64,000 bases of DNA from Candidatus Methanoperedens sp. (GTDB lineage Archaea; Halobacteriota; Methanosarcinia; Methanosarcinales; Methanoperedenaceae), in NCBI GenBank assembly GCA_012026795.1, contig VEPM01000010.1, forward strand, positions 62,001-126,000. The letters run 5' to 3'. Below the pieces are notes generated by a model. That model had not been told where the DNA came from and searched no databases. It saw only the letters and a list, made by a program, of their open reading frames with translations. Position 1 is the first letter of the stretch. Each line of letters begins with the position of its first letter. The position numbers were made by a program, and so were the translations under genes. Below are positions 5,615 through 45,166 of the stretch, piece by piece.

Positions 5615-6634
5615 ATGAAGAAAGCAAAAGTCGCGATTAATGGTTATGGAACTGTTGGTAAACGTGTAGCAGACGCTGTAAATTTACAGGATGATATGGA
5701 ATTAATTGGAATAGGGAAAACACGTTTGGATTTTCAAGCTCAAATTGCTTCCAATAAGGGTTATAAAGTATATCTATCCGAGACCGAACAGAAAAAGAAA
5801 TCAAATGAAACATCTCTCGAAGTTAGTGGTGGGTTGGAAGATATGCTCAATGAAGCGGATATTGTTGTGGATTGTACTCCTGATGGCATTGGAGAAAAAA
5901 ATAAACCTCTGTATGAAAAAGCTGGAATAAAAGCTATATGGCAGGGTGGAGAAGAGCATGAAATCGCAGGTTTTTCTTTTAATGCGTTCGCTAATTACGA
6001 TGAAGCACTTGGAAGAGAGTTTACAAGGGTAGTCTCTTGTAATACTACTGGTTTGACAAGGGTTCTTTATTTATTGGACGAAGCCTTTGAAGTTGAGAAA
6101 GCAAGAGTTACATTGATTCGCAGAGCCGCTGATCCGAATGATATAAAAACAGGGCCAATAAATGCCATCGTGCCAGATATAGAAATGCCTTCACATCATG
6201 GGCCTGATGTACAAACAATATTACCGCATATAAACATTGCAACTGTAGCTTTAAAAGTGCCGACAACGTTAATGCATGTCCATGCAGTAAACCTGAAATT
6301 GAATAATAAATGTTCAGTAAATGATATAATTAATGTTTTGAATAATTCATCCAGAATGAGATTGATAAATGGGAAGTCAGGAATTAAATCTACAGCCCAG
6401 ATTTTTGAGTTAGGAAGAGACTTGGGAAGACCACGAAATGACATGTGGGAGAATAATATTTGGAGAGATTCAATAAGTATCTACGACGATGAAGCATATT
6501 TCTTCCAGGCAATTCACCAAGAATGTGTTACTGTACCTGAAAATATAGATGCTATTCGTGCAATGATGAAAATTGAAACAGATGGCGAAAAATCTATAAA
6601 GAAAACAAATAAATCCCTTGGAATGACAGTTTAA
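5615..6634 (+). CDS. gap: Type II (archaeal) glyceraldehyde-3-phosphate dehydrogenase
   Basis: This is the archaeal phosphorylating GAPDH, converting glyceraldehyde 3-phosphate to 1,3-bisphosphoglycerate and back in glycolysis and gluconeogenesis. The 339-residue length is normal. The Rossmann motif VAINGYGTVGKRVA is at residues 6-19, and the catalytic cysteine is C142 in SCNTTGLTR. The C-terminal signature GRPRNDMWENNIWRDSI is intact. A GGAG element sits about 12 bases before the ATG, and an AT-rich promoter region precedes it. The gene is as AT-rich as the block upstream. A broken copy of the 3' end of a second gap gene follows directly, so this copy may have been inserted beside, or have replaced, an older gap gene. 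Confidence 0.93.
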   Translation: MKKAKVAINGYGTVGKRVADAVNLQDDMELIGIGKTRLDFQAQIASNKGYKVYLSETEQKKKSNETSLEVSGGLEDMLNEADIVVDCTPDGIGEKNKPLYEKAGIKAIWQGGEEHEIAGFSFNAFANYDEALGREFTRVVSCNTTGLTRVLYLLDEAFEVEKARVTLIRRAADPNDIKTGPINAIVPDIEMPSHHGPDVQTILPHINIATVALKVPTTLMHVHAVNLKLNNKCSVNDIINVLNNSSRMRLINGKSGIKSTAQIFELGRDLGRPRNDMWENNIWRDSISIYDDEAYFFQAIHQECVTVPENIDAIRAMMKIETDGEKSIKKTNKSLGMTV

Positions 6635-6660
6635 CAAATAAGAAGTAATATAGGGATTTT

Positions 6661-6821
6661 ACAGAAATTGCTTCATTCAATATTGCAAAAGACCTTGGAG
6701 GCCAAAAGGCGATATGTGGGAAAATGTTGTGTGGAAAGACTCAATTGCCATAAACAAGGGCGAGTTGTATTTCTTCCAGGCAATATAAGAAATTGGAGTT
6801 GAACCGGAATTGGAAACATGA
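6661..6821 (+). pseudogene. Remnant of a second type II GAPDH gene (C-terminal part)
   Basis: Read in two frames, this stretch gives TEIASFNIAKDLG and then RPKGDMWENVVWKDSI followed by INKGELYFFQAI, and then an in-frame TAA. It matches the intact GAPDH just upstream (ELGRDLGRPRNDMWENNIWRDSI...EAYFFQAI), but with clear substitutions (VVWKDSIAINKGEL against NIWRDSISIYDDEA). A one-base deletion near 6697-6701 breaks the frame. So it is the decayed 3' end of a different gap copy, not a recent tandem duplication of the present one. Reading continues EIGVEPELE to a TGA at 6819. Confidence 0.8.
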
Positions 6822-38904: not shown

Positions 38905-39594
38905 TTATGCTATTTCTCTTGAGGTATCCATTATGATCCCGCCCTCTATCTTGAACTTAAGCACATTTCCATGTATCGGGCGGTTTCTTGCTTTTGGTAT
39001 TGTCAGTTCAGTAGTTGTTTTATCTGCTTTTTTTATAAGTGAAATATCAAATACCGCATCGCAGATATTTATTACTTCATTTTCAATAAAAGAACGTTTT
39101 TCATCTTTGATCCCATAAAGGAACCCGAGCCCTTTTGTTCGTTTCACAGTATCATAAAGTTTATCTATAATTTCCCTGGTTTTGTTCCTTTTTATTTCAA
39201 GATGCTGGAAAAATGTTATGGTATCAACAATAAGATTTATTTCCTTAGCTTCGATAATTTCAAGCTGTTTAATAAAAAAATCCATAATCCTGTAATCCCT
39301 GAGTTCTCCACTGTCCAGCAATTTGCTTATATTTTCGTAATATTTCTCATGTATATCTATGAATTTTATGCCATCTATATCAAACCCGAATTGTTTTAAA
39401 TCATTTAATATATATTCAGGTTTACGCTCAGTATTTACATAAAAGCTTGGTCTTTGCTGGATGAACTGGTATAAGAAAATCTCTCCCATAGTCATAGAAT
39501 CCGCCATAAGGTATACTAAAGAACCCGCAAGTAAGCCACCGTCCAGTTCTTTATCAAGAGTTGGAAGCCCTGTAGGTAATAATTTAGTTGTCAT
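38905..39594 (-). CDS. KaiC-like ATPase fold with degenerate Walker A
   Basis: The 229-residue protein has the RecA/KaiC core (TGLPTLDKELDGGLLAGSLV; INLIVDTITFFQHLE as the Walker B-like strand). The P-loop position is replaced (MADSMTMGEIF, no GKT), so it is probably inactive in ATP hydrolysis. It lies just downstream of the active paralogue (39639-40352) and of the kinase-regulator genes, which suggests they form one signalling complex. Some methanogen KaiC-like proteins are regulatory ATPase partners of response regulators. Confidence 0.7.
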   Translation of the reverse strand: MTTKLLPTGLPTLDKELDGGLLAGSLVYLMADSMTMGEIFLYQFIQQRPSFYVNTERKPEYILNDLKQFGFDIDGIKFIDIHEKYYENISKLLDSGELRDYRIMDFFIKQLEIIEAKEINLIVDTITFFQHLEIKRNKTREIIDKLYDTVKRTKGLGFLYGIKDEKRSFIENEVINICDAVFDISLIKKADKTTTELTIPKARNRPIHGNVLKFKIEGGIIMDTSREIA

Positions 39595-39638
39595 AATTTA
39601 TTTGTTGCCATAATTTATTTACCATTGATTTTACCGGT

Positions 39639-40352
39639 TTATTTCTGTAAAAATTCTATACCTTTGGAAGTAATTTCAAATCTGATGGGAGCCAAGGAAA
39701 TTTTGGTATTACGTATCTTCAGGACTTCGAACAGGCGTTCTCTTGCTCCTGTAAAGGGATTATCCTTGATAGAAGTCCGCAGAACCCCGTAAACAGAATA
39801 TGAAGCAATGCTCTCTGTGCGGTTATCTGCTGACTGGTCCATTATCAGTAAGGCTGTAATATTCCTTTTCATTAATCCTGCAACTAATGAGTCAATCTGT
39901 GCCCTGAATTCGTTTGCAGACATGTTAAGTGTAAAAACACCTATATTGTCAATCAAAACACTCTCTACATCCTTGGGTATTCTGTCCAGCAACCCGATAA
40001 GATTGGATTGCAGTTTATCGGTATCCGTTATTTCATAAGCTAATAATTCCTTGGCATACATTGTCCGCTCTTCATAGACTTTATTTATTGCCAGTAAACC
40101 ATTTTTATTGAATTTCCCAAGGTCCATACCAACCGATTCTGACTGGGCAATGATATCTCCTGGTAATTCTTCGCTGGCGATTATAAGGGATTTTCGTCCC
40201 TCTGTACAGGCCTTATGAATAAAACTCAAGCCCAGTATGGTTTTGCCCGATCCTGTCATCCCGAGAATTAACATAGTACGGCCCTTTGGATATCCACCCC
40301 CTATCATTTCATCAAGCCCTGTAATTCCAGTATGTATTCGTTCCATGATCAT
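39639..40352 (-). CDS. KaiC-like ATPase
   Basis: The 237-residue protein is a single RecA/KaiC domain: IHTGITGLDEMIGGGYPKGR, Walker A GMTGSGKT, ELP motif (IIASEELPG) and Walker B strand SVLIDNIGVFT. The end (TKISLAPIRFEITSKGIEF) matches KaiC-domain proteins of archaea. The start may be ATG 40346 (MERIHTG). Such proteins often integrate ATP state or act with kinases; the partner here is probably the neighbouring response regulators. This fits the cluster but is inferred. Confidence 0.85.
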   Translation of the reverse strand: MIMERIHTGITGLDEMIGGGYPKGRTMLILGMTGSGKTILGLSFIHKACTEGRKSLIIASEELPGDIIAQSESVGMDLGKFNKNGLLAINKVYEERTMYAKELLAYEITDTDKLQSNLIGLLDRIPKDVESVLIDNIGVFTLNMSANEFRAQIDSLVAGLMKRNITALLIMDQSADNRTESIASYSVYGVLRTSIKDNPFTGARERLFEVLKIRNTKISLAPIRFEITSKGIEFLQK

Positions 40353-40405
40353 GTTATATTTATATTATGTTTAATTGTTAATAAATTCAATCCCTTAATT
40401 GCGGG

Positions 40406-41251
40406 TCAGGCTTTCATAAATAATTCTATCAGACAACAATCATCCCCTCCTGCTATGGTTTTTTTAATATCTATATTTATATCTTTATATATATGAATGC
40501 CGACCCGGGCAAATATTGCTTTTGTCATCATGCAAAGTACCGGATTTAACCCGTTTTCCCCCCATGGACATTTACTATTTATTATAACATATCCTTTTTC
40601 ACTTGCTTCTTTTACTGAAAAGTTCCCACCCATTTTGTTCAAAATACTGCACGTGATGTTTGCTGTTTGTGCGCTTTCTTTTGGAATGTCATGAATATAT
40701 TTTGTCCAGATTATATCTTCTACCTGTTCACTCATAAGGGTCATTACTTCAGTCATTTTTCCAGGGGGAATACTCCGAAGGATAAGAGGAAGAATGTCAG
40801 TCATAATAGTTTTGAAATCATTTTGAGCCTCAATTTGTTCTTTGGCCTTGAGAAGTTCGTCATGATAATTCTTTATCTTCAGAAGTGATTTTACGCGGGT
40901 ACGGAGTTCAAGCACGTTAACCGGTTTAGAAAGAAAGTCATCAGCCCCGGTTTCTATAGCTTTGATCTTATCTTCTACTTCAGACAATGCTGTGACCATT
41001 ACTACAGGAATGAACCTTGTGGAATCCTGTTGTTTTATTTTTTCACATACTTCATATCCATTGACCTGGGGCATCTTAATATCCAGGAGAATAATATCAG
41101 GTTTATCACATATCACTTTTTCAAGCGCTTCTTTTCCGCTGTATGCCGGTATTAAATCGTAATAATTTTCAAGATAACCAAAAATAAGCTCGACATTTAC
41201 GGGTTCATCATCAACCACAAGGATTTTTGCCTTATTATCTTGATTTACCAT
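40406..41251 (-). CDS. Response regulator with methanogen output domain (MetOD1)
   Basis: Residues 1-125 are a receiver with D14/D15 and the phospho-acceptor D57 (IILLDIKMP), with the conserved Lys in LSKPVN. The second half (about 150-281) ends in KCPWGENGLNPVLCMMTKAI and TIAGGDDCCLIEL, the pattern of methanogen output domain 1, a V4R-like or ligand-type fold with conserved cysteines. So the phosphorylated receiver probably controls a Cys-containing sensor/output domain. It lies between the KaiC-like genes and the receiver-only gene, in line with one signalling cluster. Confidence 0.85.
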   Translation of the reverse strand: MVNQDNKAKILVVDDEPVNVELIFGYLENYYDLIPAYSGKEALEKVICDKPDIILLDIKMPQVNGYEVCEKIKQQDSTRFIPVVMVTALSEVEDKIKAIETGADDFLSKPVNVLELRTRVKSLLKIKNYHDELLKAKEQIEAQNDFKTIMTDILPLILRSIPPGKMTEVMTLMSEQVEDIIWTKYIHDIPKESAQTANITCSILNKMGGNFSVKEASEKGYVIINSKCPWGENGLNPVLCMMTKAIFARVGIHIYKDINIDIKKTIAGGDDCCLIELFMKA

Positions 41252-41284
41252 TTAATACCTCAAAAAATCACTTATAATTTCATA

Positions 41285-41656
41285 TCAGGATTGTTTATAT
41301 TTCTGCACTTGTTTTATGAAACCCGGTACATCGATTGGTTTTGCTATATAATCATCAAAACCTGCTGCCAGGAATTTTTCCCGGTCTCCTTTCATAGCAA
41401 AAGCAGTCAAAGCGATATTTGGTACAGCATCATATCCGGGCTTACTTTTTATGATCTTTATGGCAGATATGCCATCCATCCCCGGAAGTTCTATATCCAT
41501 CAGGATCAAATCATAGTGTTCATTTTCAATCATTTTTATCGCTTCTTCCGCATTAATTGCCCCGGATACGAGAAATCCTGATGATTTGAGAATCTCAATG
41601 ACAAGTTCCATATTCAGGGGATTATCTTCTACAATGAGTATTTTCATTTGCGCCAT
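41285..41656 (-). CDS. Stand-alone receiver domain response regulator
   Basis: The 123-residue protein is one receiver domain: ILIVEDNPLNMELVIEILKS, D54 in LILMDIELPGMDG, and KPIDVPGFIKQVQKYK with the conserved Lys. There is no output domain, so it is a phospho-relay or partner protein, like CheY. The stop of the histidine kinase lies at its first codon's side, 1 base away, so the pair is one operon. Confidence 0.9.
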   Translation of the reverse strand: MAQMKILIVEDNPLNMELVIEILKSSGFLVSGAINAEEAIKMIENEHYDLILMDIELPGMDGISAIKIIKSKPGYDAVPNIALTAFAMKGDREKFLAAGFDDYIAKPIDVPGFIKQVQKYKQS

Positions 41657-43231
41657 TTAATTCCCAACCTTCTTTTTTACAGTCAGCGGTAATTGAAAAA
41701 TGAAAGTACTCCCTTTCCCGTATTTACTCTCGGCCCATATCCTGCCCCCGTGTAGTTCCACCAGATGCTTTGAAATAGCAAGACCAAGACCTGTACCACC
41801 ATATTTCCTGGAAGTGCCGGAATCGACCTGCTGGAACTTATTGAAGAGCTTGTCCAGATCCTCTTTCTTGATTCCAATACCAGTATCTGATACTGAAATT
41901 TGCACCATTTCACTATCTTTTCTTGTGGTTATGGTTATAATCCCGCCATCTTTCTGGCTGAATTTGACTGCATTGCTCAGCAGATTGAAAAGTATTTGTT
42001 TAAAATTCTGTTTATCACCTTCAATGAACTCGACCTGAGGATCAAATTCTTTCTTCAGGGCAATATTATGTTTTGCGGCTGTAGCTTTTATAAGTTCCAT
42101 AGTATCATTTATCATCGGGGATAAATAAATCTTCTCAACGTTCAAATCTATCTTTCCAGCTTCTATCTTGCTCAGGTCAAGAATATCGTTGATCAGATCA
42201 AGAAGATGTTTACTGCTCTTGATTATATTATCTATATAATGTTCCTGTTTCTCGTTTAGATCTCCCATCATTTTTTGTTTCAACAGGTCGGAAAAACCAA
42301 TTATAGAATTCAAAGGTGTGCGAAGTTCGTGGCTCATCGTTGACAGGAATTCGGATTTTATCTGGTTTGCACGCTCAGCTTCTTCCTTTGATACTTTTAA
42401 TGATTCTTCAGCTATCATTAATTTTTTATATGGTAACTCTATATACGATTGATGAAGGGCAAGATATGCAAAATAGAAACCTGCACCTTTTAATAAGAGC
42501 CCTGGAAATTCTAATGTATTCAGGATAAGGTAGCTAAATACTATGATATTAAATCCATAAATGAGATTAATAATATCCTGGTCTTTATTTAGTTGGAGTC
42601 TTTTTGCATACAGGTAACTTGCATATAATGTTATTAATATGCTTAACAGTACCAATGATACTCTTAATTCAGATGGTCCGCCCCCTGAATATATTTTCGG
42701 ATATTCATTCAGCAGGAACCTCAGATAATACATTGTTATAAATGGCAGTACTGACAGGATAATTGCTGAAATAAGAAGAATACTTTTGTTGAGCAATCTC
42801 AGGCTATCCTTAAACAGGTATGCACTTATCAGGAATAATGGTGCGATAATTACCTGAACAACATCACTGAAAATCCTTGCTTTTTGAACTGAGTTCGGGG
42901 TAAAAAAATCAGGCATGAAAGGATAAGAAAGTATATGGAATAGTTCAAAAATCCCTATTATTAAAAAAGTGGCTCCCATGAATAGCGTATGATCATTCTG
43001 GTTCTGGCTGTATGCAAACCACGTCATAGCAAAAATGGATAAGGAGACAAAAACAAAAAAGAATTCTATTAAAAGATCAAAAGGACCGAGCATCCCATGA
43101 ATATACTGGCTATTTCCAATCAGATAGCCGATGAATAAAATCATTACTATTATCAATATTAACTTCAGGAGGTGTTTCAAAGCCCCTCTTATGTTAATTC
43201 CTGGATTATTCCTATCAAATCGCATGATCAA
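41657..43231 (-). CDS. MASE3 sensor histidine kinase
   Basis: The 524-residue protein has a membrane sensor of MASE3 type in residues 20-270 (about eight helices; [20 protein letters not shown] and [15 protein letters not shown]), a coiled linker, HisKA with H301 (SHELRTPLN), and the catalytic HATPase domain with N, G1 and G2 boxes ([38 protein letters not shown]). It is the input of the cluster: the two response regulators and KaiC-like proteins lie directly downstream. The signal is unknown. Confidence 0.9.
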
Positions 43232-43351
43232 ATGTATTCAAGTAAGCCTGATATTTTAAACAACACTTTGAATGAACAATATATTAACTAAAGGTGTGAA
43301 AAAGGTGTCACACTTTTGATCATAGAATTTTGATCCTGAAAACACCATAAT

Positions 43352-43360
43352 CTTTATATC
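43352..43360 (+). promoter_or_regulatory. TATA-like promoter element and nearby inverted repeat
   Basis: CTTTATATC stands about 55 bases before the ATG at 43414. Further upstream GTGTGA and TCACAC face each other (about 43295-43314), a possible operator. A strong GGAGGT site precedes the ATG. Confidence 0.4.
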
Positions 43361-43413
43361 GGATTACGGTTATGTATAGTTTTGTCAAAACATGACATCA
43401 AATCGGAGGTAAC

Positions 43414-43842
43414 ATGACAGCAAGCCTGAATTTCTTTAAACAATATCACAGCACTGTAATAAAAGCACTGGGCGAGGATGCCAGGAAAGTAAATGCAAAA
43501 GTGGGTTCAATATTTGCCGATAACTGGGCTGATAAAGCAGGAGATATAAAAAACCAGGGCGAATTTGCAAAGAGTTTTGAGGATTATCTCAAGAATGACC
43601 TGGAATTCGCAAAATATGTAAAGGTCAACTGCGACGAGAATAATTATACTCTTGATATCAAAGGATGTGCAATTTGCCATGGTAATGAAATACTCAGGAA
43701 GGAAGGCATAGCAACAGCATGTCCCATAGTCCAGGCAGCAAAATACGCGGCTGTTAAGAAAATCGGAAGGAACGTTATTACTAAAGGTGTTGATAAACCC
43801 GGAACAGTGGGAGAGTGTACTATCAAGTTTGAACTCGAGTGA
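43414..43842 (+). CDS. Cysteine-rich stand-alone protein resembling a methanogen output domain
   Basis: The 142-residue protein has a helical first half and an end with KGCAICHGNEILRKEG, ACPIVQAAKYAAVKKIG and GTVGECTIKFELE. The order Cys-Cys-His, CP, Ala-rich helix, GxxxCxIxxE resembles the C-terminal MetOD1 part of the response regulator at 40406-41251 (CP, CMM helix, GGDDCCLIEL). CAICH is CxxCH, but the lack of a signal peptide argues against a c-type cytochrome; metal or Fe-S binding is possible. It is divergent from the histidine kinase and has its own promoter and GGAGGT. Confidence 0.6.
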   Translation: MTASLNFFKQYHSTVIKALGEDARKVNAKVGSIFADNWADKAGDIKNQGEFAKSFEDYLKNDLEFAKYVKVNCDENNYTLDIKGCAICHGNEILRKEGIATACPIVQAAKYAAVKKIGRNVITKGVDKPGTVGECTIKFELE

Positions 43843-43846
43843 AATA

Positions 43847-45166
43847 CTCCCTGCTAAAGCAAGGGAGCTTCCTGCTTCATTGCTTCTCTATTGAGATTGC
43901 TCAGGCAGGCTTGAAATCCCGTAGTTCCTACGGTACTGATTGATCTATTTTTAATATTGATTGCAGCATTATGATCTCTATCCAGAATAAGGCCACAAAA
44001 AGGACAACTATGCACCCGAACTTTCAGGTCTTTTGAGACTGATTTACCACAATTGCTACAACTCTGACTCGTATTTCTCGGATTAACAAATTCAACTATT
44101 TTCCCAGCGTATTCTGCTTTGGACTTTGTTAAATTAATTAACTGTGACCATCCTGCATCTAATATGGATTTGGCAAGATGATGGTTCTGTACCATGTTTT
44201 GTACTTGTAAATCCTCAAATACAATATGATCATATTTCTTAACAAGATTCGTACTTAATTTTTGATTGAAATCTTTCCTCTGATTCCTGATTCTTCGATG
44301 TACTTTTGCTACAACGATTCTCTGATTATCCCGGTTCTTTGAACGAAGTTTCTTTTTTGATAGATGTATCTGTTCCCTTGATAGTCTTTTTTCAGATGCC
44401 CTTAGAAATTCAGGTGGTTCTATCTGTGTCCCATTGCTCATTGTTATTAAGGAATTTAAGCCAACATCAATTCCTGTTTTGGTCTTGATCTCAACAGATA
44501 TTACGGGTATTTCGATTTCACAGGAAAAAGTAACATACCAGTGGTCAATATCCTTCTTGATCGTACAGGTCTTGATTTTTCCTTCGATTTCTCGATGTAA
44601 TATTATCTTGATAGCTCCGATTTTCGATAAGTTGAGTTTTTCCTTTTTGAGTGAAAAACCTGATTGTGGATATGTGAAACTATTATACCTGTTCCTTCCC
44701 TGGAATCGAGGATAGCCAAAGCCGTTAAAGAAATTCTTAAAGCTTCTATCAACTCTTTTCAGGACGTTCTGGAGTACTTGAGAGAATACTTCTTTCTGGA
44801 AATCTGTCTTTGACCCTGACAGGCTATTAGCCTGGTCGTAATAGTTCATCCATTCTGGTTTTCCCCAGGGAGTTACATCAAAAGACCGCTTTAATTCATT
44901 AAGTTCCGATTCTCTTTTTCGTTCAGAAAGAGAATCATTATAGAGGTGTCTGCATGTGGAAAGTGTTCTATTTAGGATTACCTCTTGATTCTTAGTTGGA
45001 TATATCCTGAATTGATATGTTTTTTTCATGCAAAATCTACAAGCCTTATATTGTTTTGATGCTATTTATGTTTTGTATATCCCTAAAATGCAGAATCGAC
45101 AACTACTTTTTCGGGATAGATATTACAATTGCAGGGGTCAGATTCATCCCCGTCCTACAGGAACGG
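43847..45166 (-). mobile_element. Solo IS200/IS605-family (TnpB-only, IS1341-like) element
   Basis: A complete tnpB gene is bracketed by hairpins: CTCCCTGC-TAAA-GCAAGGGAG at 43847-43867 (the tnpB stop codon lies at the loop side) and CCCGTCCT-AC-AGGAACGGG at 45148-45166. Both stems carry a bulged A, the form typical of IS605-type ends recognised by TnpA. No tnpA is present, so movement would need a transposase in trans. The ends are estimated from the hairpins; the exact target junction is not certain. Confidence 0.75.
43854..45029 (-). CDS. tnpB: RNA-guided nuclease TnpB
   Basis: TnpB is the omega-RNA-guided DNA endonuclease of IS200/IS605 elements and the ancestor of Cas12. The 391-residue protein is complete: RuvC-like D188 (GIDVGLNSL), E272 (VFEDLQVQN) and D352 (DRDHNAAINI), with the zinc ribbon C324, C327, C342 and C345. 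All active residues are present, so it may be functional. The unusual last 25 residues (SISTVGTTGFQACLSNLNRE) are encoded by the region where the omega RNA should lie, which also forms the right end. Confidence 0.92.
   Translation of the reverse strand: MKKTYQFRIYPTKNQEVILNRTLSTCRHLYNDSLSERKRESELNELKRSFDVTPWGKPEWMNYYDQANSLSGSKTDFQKEVFSQVLQNVLKRVDRSFKNFFNGFGYPRFQGRNRYNSFTYPQSGFSLKKEKLNLSKIGAIKIILHREIEGKIKTCTIKKDIDHWYVTFSCEIEIPVISVEIKTKTGIDVGLNSLITMSNGTQIEPPEFLRASEKRLSREQIHLSKKKLRSKNRDNQRIVVAKVHRRIRNQRKDFNQKLSTNLVKKYDHIVFEDLQVQNMVQNHHLAKSILDAGWSQLINLTKSKAEYAGKIVEFVNPRNTSQSCSNCGKSVSKDLKVRVHSCPFCGLILDRDHNAAINIKNRSISTVGTTGFQACLSNLNREAMKQEAPLL

Follow-up and report, generated by a model that had tools for sequence, protein, structure and literature searches.

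In cyanobacteria, the ATPase KaiC acts on the SasA-RpaA pair, and its K-x-R finger works on the ATP of the neighbouring subunit. Many archaeal two-component systems have no DNA-binding outputs and their targets are unknown; for one of the domains found in such systems, MetOD1, we know of no function or partner so far. KaiC-like ATPases are said to have been described by Makarova et al. in 2017 as archaeal signal hubs, and the general idea of archaeal KaiC hubs is already published. According to the accessible part of another study, KaiC-REC fusions occur in six Methanosarcinaceae genera, and the text there names both MetOD1 and KaiC without connecting them (PMC5847659). In M. acetivorans, the kinase MA4377 phosphorylates the REC-only protein MA4376 and the REC-MetOD1 protein MA2445 within 30 s, the latter being termed a stand-alone 'orphan' in the available text (PMC11784639). 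A linkage of KaiC with pilus genes in Methanomicrobia was reported in 2016, with a second component not evident in most cases (PMC4858521), and ArlH, a KaiC homologue, acts on ArlI (PMC4858521, PMC8978795). The proteins listed for a Borg, one of the extrachromosomal elements of Methanoperedens, include a MetOD1 protein that has a tandem repeat (PMC9879509). A search of open-access full text, a scope outside which the 2017 KaiC-hub paper falls, found no paper that links MetOD1 to KaiC.

Here, we compare with these systems a gene cluster of Candidatus Methanoperedens sp. that lies in the window, i.e., the whole stretch of 64,000 nucleotides that was analysed. We hold it reasonably probable that this cluster is a copy of a conserved module by which a two-component system signals to KaiC; the signal would pass from kinase to REC-MetOD1, to KaiC and on to an effector. 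The genes concerned, and one divergent neighbour, are as follows:

41657..43231, minus strand: membrane histidine kinase (MASE3-HisKA-HATPase), 524 aa, first gene in transcription order
41285..41656, minus strand: REC-only response regulator, 123 aa (Pfam PF00072, 96.5 bits)
40406..41251, minus strand: response regulator REC-MetOD1, 281 aa, with the MetOD1 part at about 40424-40807
39639..40352, minus strand: KA, single-domain KaiC ATPase, 237 aa (Pfam PF06745, 173 bits against a cut-off of 26.6)
38905..39594, minus strand: KB, KaiC-like protein (Pfam PF06745, 59.6 bits) with Walker A and the EE pair lost and K-A-R kept
43414..43842, plus strand: X, Cys-rich protein, 142 aa, divergent, starting 182 bp upstream of the kinase

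The earlier note had described a kinase, a receiver, a receiver-MetOD1 protein and two KaiC-like proteins, one active and one with a lost P-loop, as tightly packed on one strand; coordinates and above-cut-off Pfam matches agree with this, the gaps from the kinase down to KB being only 0, 33, 53 and 44 bp. The kinase combines the three domains of a MASE3 histidine kinase (PF17159, MASE3, 89.3 bits; PF00512, HisKA, 84.7 bits; PF02518, HATPase, 115.4 bits; all above cut-off), and its translation contains the H-box SHELRTP. It scores 247.7 of the 560 bits required for the longer NCBIfam subfamily MASE3_PAS_HK; its start is a TTG in the list of open reading frames, with an ATG two codons downstream. 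The REC-MetOD1 protein (PF00072, 96.1 bits; PF18546, MetOD1, 77.2 bits against a cut-off of 23.8) has the phospho-acceptor Asp, D57, and a MetOD1 domain with three conserved Cys, C228, C240 and C273, and these residues are invariant across 62 relatives. In the AF2 model (pLDDT 87.7), a long helix (residues 113-159) joins the REC and MetOD1 domains. Foldseek matches to the whole model were essentially to the receiver domain only, and were uninformative for MetOD1.

KA belongs to the KaiC family with a complete active site, including Walker A (P-loop GMTGSGKT), the EE pair, Walker B and the K-x-R finger, and a 97% identical KaiC is known from Ca. Methanoperedens sp. BLZ2. KB has ADSMTMGE and NTERKP where the P-loop and the catalytic Glu are expected, and thus does not have the ATP-binding and catalytic residues of KaiC. 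An assignment of KA as a circadian KaiC was rejected, as KA has one domain of 237 aa and reached 103.6 of 408 and 70.5 of 546 bits with the equivalog models, and so was an assignment as ArlH/FlaH (NF052589, 39.7 of 215 bits). Pfam found neither a DNA-binding domain nor KaiA or KaiB encoded in the cluster, and there were no tRNA or Rfam matches within the window.

The earlier note had suggested looking at neighbourhood conservation in other methanogens; the order of this cluster is conserved in its family. The 34 Methanoperedenaceae genomes contain 30 MetOD1 domains above cut-off, and when coordinates were compared using KA as query, a KA-type KaiC lay directly downstream on the same strand of 29 of the 30 genes. 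The sole exception (genome G019) has its KA-type KaiC 2 kb off on the opposite strand. The window's own genome has three such pairs, on contigs C10, C33 and C6, each within a cluster of kinase, REC-only protein, REC-(PAS)n-MetOD1 protein and KaiC. Three four-gene clusters in one genome indicate that the module was duplicated as a unit or repeatedly built, with the PAS part swapped.

To place the linkage in a wider frame, MetOD1 loci were sampled across the order and phylum and their surroundings annotated, giving 85 REC-MetOD1 genes from five families; 'ANME-2-like' and 'Methanosarcinaceae' are inferred labels for coded families. KaiC was present in the same cluster for 73 of these genes (64 adjacent on the same strand with a gap of at most 256 bp, and 9 others), counts that are not independent since the genomes are related. 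By comparison, with 25 KaiC matches in a genome of 3.6 Mb, a KaiC would lie beside a gene picked at random in an estimated 1-2% of cases (uncorrected for kinship). For about 5 of the 12 genes without KaiC, the contig or fetched stretch ends at the expected KaiC site, and 4 belong to genus g21. Three arrangements were found across the five families. KaiC comes after MetOD1 in the Methanoperedenaceae, in family f10 and in part of family f3; it comes before MetOD1 in Methanosarcinaceae; and in the ANME-2-like families f3 and f4 it comes before a hybrid kinase. Where genes stay together although their order has changed, the case for a functional connection is stronger than conserved order by itself would make it. 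In ANME-2-like genomes, the hybrid kinase, REC-only, REC-MetOD1 and KaiC genes all lie in one cluster. The neighbours of the Methanosarcinaceae KaiC-MetOD1 pairs (PurE-like, chorismate mutase, 2-oxoacid oxidoreductase, Lon and TldD) are housekeeping genes and gave no clue.

These arrangements also bear on the direction of the signal. KaiC might instead sense ATP/ADP or its own ring state and act on the kinase or on REC-MetOD1, with MetOD1 as the input/output domain of the regulator. The cyanobacterial precedent and the position of KaiC beside the hybrid kinase in ANME-2-like clusters are consistent with this reversal. However, the window kinase consists of MASE3, HisKA and HATPase only, with no KaiB-like docking domain found such as that of SasA, and where the cluster is split, in Methanosarcinaceae, KaiC has stayed with MetOD1 and not with the kinase. 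We therefore regard a reversed flow as rather unlikely.

The module in which the regulator precedes KaiC gains from a comparison with M. acetivorans. The hybrid kinase at 5.395 Mb of genome G148 carries H497 and D818, as published for MA4377, whose published D940 is position 941 in the present numbering of this kinase. The next gene, which encodes a REC-only protein, has a 29-nt overlap with it, in agreement with what is published on MA4376. Such a kinase with such an overlapping gene identifies G148 as M. acetivorans. As the single MetOD1 match in G148 is a REC-MetOD1 protein, it must be MA2445, and the REC-MetOD1 of the window corresponds to MA2445. The window's REC-only protein likewise finds its best M. 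acetivorans match in MA4376 (44% identity, 99 bits; next best 80 bits), and the ANME-2-like hybrid kinase in MA4377 (507 bits against 491 for the runner-up). Contrary to the 'orphan' label, MA2445 directly follows a KaiC, and this KaiC is of the clade described below.

A maximum-likelihood tree was built from selected MetOD1-linked KaiCs together with the other KaiCs of the window's genome and of M. acetivorans. All sampled MetOD1-linked KaiCs grouped in a single clade (support 99/97), to which most other KaiCs of the two genomes do not belong; further members are the second KaiC found at Methanosarcina-like loci and, from M. acetivorans, one KaiC linked to pilus genes. The tie between MetOD1 regulators and this clade extends over Methanosarcinales plus one more family, in archaea that oxidise methane as well as in archaea that make it. 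KaiCs of M. acetivorans that lie beside other T2SSE genes, and are presumed to be ArlH, are placed outside it. KA and its relatives retain Walker A, the EE pair, Walker B and K-(I/M)-R. KB, which occurs only in part of one family, lies outside the clade on a separate long branch, and its origin as a recent duplicate of KA was rejected on this ground. In ten full-domain orthologues of KB, Walker A and the EE pair are lost and K-A-R is kept in all ten. Another divergent second KaiC adjoins KaiC-MetOD1 at 5970-6695 of locus L141 and at equivalent positions in L113-L116 and L142-L148; it keeps the P-loop and has R-E in place of E-E. Judged from its residues, this Methanosarcina-like R-E KaiC represents another route by which one member of a KaiC pair has been altered.

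The confinement of the linkage to one KaiC clade, and its persistence in at least three gene orders and after duplications, argue against mere co-transcription or co-inheritance without contact, in which MetOD1 would be an independent sensor or an ATC-hydrolase-like enzyme and KaiC would serve another pathway. Such separate roles would fit the distant relationship of MetOD1 to an enzyme family and genus g21, where MetOD1 occurs without KaiC, and we consider them distinctly improbable. In that genus, genomes G102 and G103 (loci L118-L123) have 5-7 MetOD1 matches with no KaiC near those inspected, so that MetOD1 appears to have expanded without the partner. Several g21 genes of this kind indicate that MetOD1 can function without a KaiC partner.

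The earlier note had joined a phosphorelay to a KaiC module and included the divergent gene X, which was thought to resemble the MetOD1 end. Linkage through changes of order, a dedicated KaiC clade and the published phosphotransfer between M. acetivorans homologues support the former part well, whereas membership of X is not supported. X has no Pfam match to MetOD1 (PF18546) and only a sub-threshold match to ATC_hydrolase (18.4 bits against a cut-off of 28.1), and the profile comparison of X with MetOD1 that the earlier note had called for gave no significant match. Its model (pLDDT 85.5) points to a possible fold of the V4R/TRAPP-Bet3/H-NOX group, with weak Foldseek matches to TRAPP Bet3 and to MopR/PoxR phenol-sensor domains (probability 0.98-1.00 for the top matches, E at least 0.003, TM about 0.5-0.6). 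X and MetOD1 have in common their general predicted topology and a similar Cys spacing, and nothing more. X could still be the dedicated output of the cluster, considering that it is its divergent neighbour in four close genomes and has a related predicted fold. Yet X, which is 79-94% identical across the genus, occurs in 24 of the 31 genomes of that genus, in most cases at a distance from the cluster, and several of these genomes have no MetOD1 above cut-off; its stable neighbour in many genomes is QueC, often with dCMP deaminase and CarS. We therefore find a role of X as output very improbable and, on distribution, neighbourhood and profile comparison, rejected X as part of the module; it is probably a separate conserved protein.

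In the window, an IS605-type OrfB/TnpB gene (43854-45029, minus strand) lies between X and QueC. X is directly beside QueC in relatives, e.g., at L033 and L075, so that this gene looks like a recent insertion. A second MetOD1-type KaiC adjoins X at L034 (13379-14623), on the QueC-facing side, and at L049 (6758-9381), and only in L049 is a MetOD1 gene along with it. The spot beside X thus seems to collect MetOD1-KaiC modules in two genomes.

The nearest solved relatives of KA are KaiC proteins (about 104-124 bits), which would fit a circadian or other self-sustained clock of the KaiABC kind. This reading is almost certainly wrong, as KA is single-domain and far under the cut-offs of the circadian models, and neither KaiA nor KaiB was found in the cluster.

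If the cluster is a two-component-to-KaiC module, it could work as follows. The MASE3 kinase would sense a membrane signal and phosphorylate both the REC-only and the REC-MetOD1 proteins, a step for which phosphotransfer has been shown for homologues only (PMC11784639). The REC-only protein could be a phosphate sink or an adaptor. The signal might travel from REC to MetOD1 along the long helix. MetOD1 would be a V4R/H-NOX-like domain whose three invariant Cys may bind a metal or ligand. As gene linkage and the dedicated clade suggest, MetOD1 may bind the KaiC ATPase and alter its ATPase activity or oligomeric state. Given that K-x-R acts on the neighbour's ATP in cyanobacterial KaiC, a mixed KA-KB ring is a reasonable idea, and from its residues the Methanoperedens KB might join or cap the KaiC ring and lend its K-x-R finger to the ATP of a neighbour. 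KaiC would finally act on an effector, as its linkage in relatives suggests.

For the ANME-2-like relatives, the candidate effector is the type IV pilus motor of the same operon, by analogy with the action of ArlH on ArlI. In 12 ANME-2-like and related loci, REC-MetOD1 is followed by T2SSE (type IV pilus ATPase) and then by T2SSF (TadC-like) and pilin genes. The M. acetivorans gene that best matches this T2SSE lies behind a member of the dedicated KaiC clade, from which a 63-aa ORF separates it. A secretion ATPase and a TadC-like gene beside KaiC, the signature of a KaiC-regulated type IV pilus locus, are seen both in M. acetivorans and in the ANME-2-like relatives; the window's cluster, which has no pilus genes beside it, does not have this signature. 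M. acetivorans has a second pilus operon (T2SSE, T2SSF and pilins; L240, 5024-7729) behind a short, apparently truncated KaiC-like gene of 161 aa. In genus g27 (L153, L154 and L155), a REC-less MetOD1-like protein directly precedes T2SSE and T2SSF, with no KaiC in the fetched stretch. We put forward only tentatively, and consider unlikely in its full extent, that MetOD1, switched by phosphorylation, controls a KaiC ring dedicated to it (mixed in Methanoperedens, where KB would give the trans K-x-R only) and that this switch sets the activity of type IV pilus motors across Methanosarcinales. If this is true, one phosphorelay of bacterial type has become attached to the KaiC/ArlH type of motor control known from archaea.

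The conserved linkage suggests the dedicated KaiC as partner of MetOD1, and with it a next step for the phosphorelay from MA4377 to MA2445, which can be tested in the methanogen M. acetivorans, where genetic methods are established. MetOD1 regulators would also be candidates for the second component of most pilus-associated KaiCs, which the 2016 survey of archaeal pili did not see (PMC4858521).

Compared with known systems, the module resembles cyanobacterial KaiC-SasA-RpaA in joining KaiC with a histidine kinase and a response regulator, a coupling that we infer from genes for the window; it differs in that its KaiC has a single domain, that neither KaiA nor KaiB was found in the cluster, and that it has no DNA-binding regulator. 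With the KaiC signal hubs of 2017, as cited in PMC5847659, it has in common that KaiC proteins, active as well as inactivated, go together with signal-transduction domains, whereas here one KaiC clade is specifically paired with MetOD1 regulators encoded as separate genes. The phosphorelay of MA4377, MA4376 and MA2445 likewise has REC-only and REC-MetOD1 targets, the window's REC-only protein having its best match there in MA4376. That relay has a hybrid kinase and scattered genes, unlike the MASE3-type kinase and clustered genes of the window, and the available text of the study (PMC11784639) does not consider KaiC, which the present analysis links to it. The likeness to KaiC-associated archaeal type IV pilus loci and ArlH-ArlI (PMC4858521, PMC8978795) lies in a KaiC beside a secretion ATPase and a TadC-like protein, genes that are seen in the relatives of the window's cluster and not beside the cluster itself. 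To these loci, the present system adds a phosphorelay and MetOD1, with a KaiC, KA, that falls outside the ArlH model.
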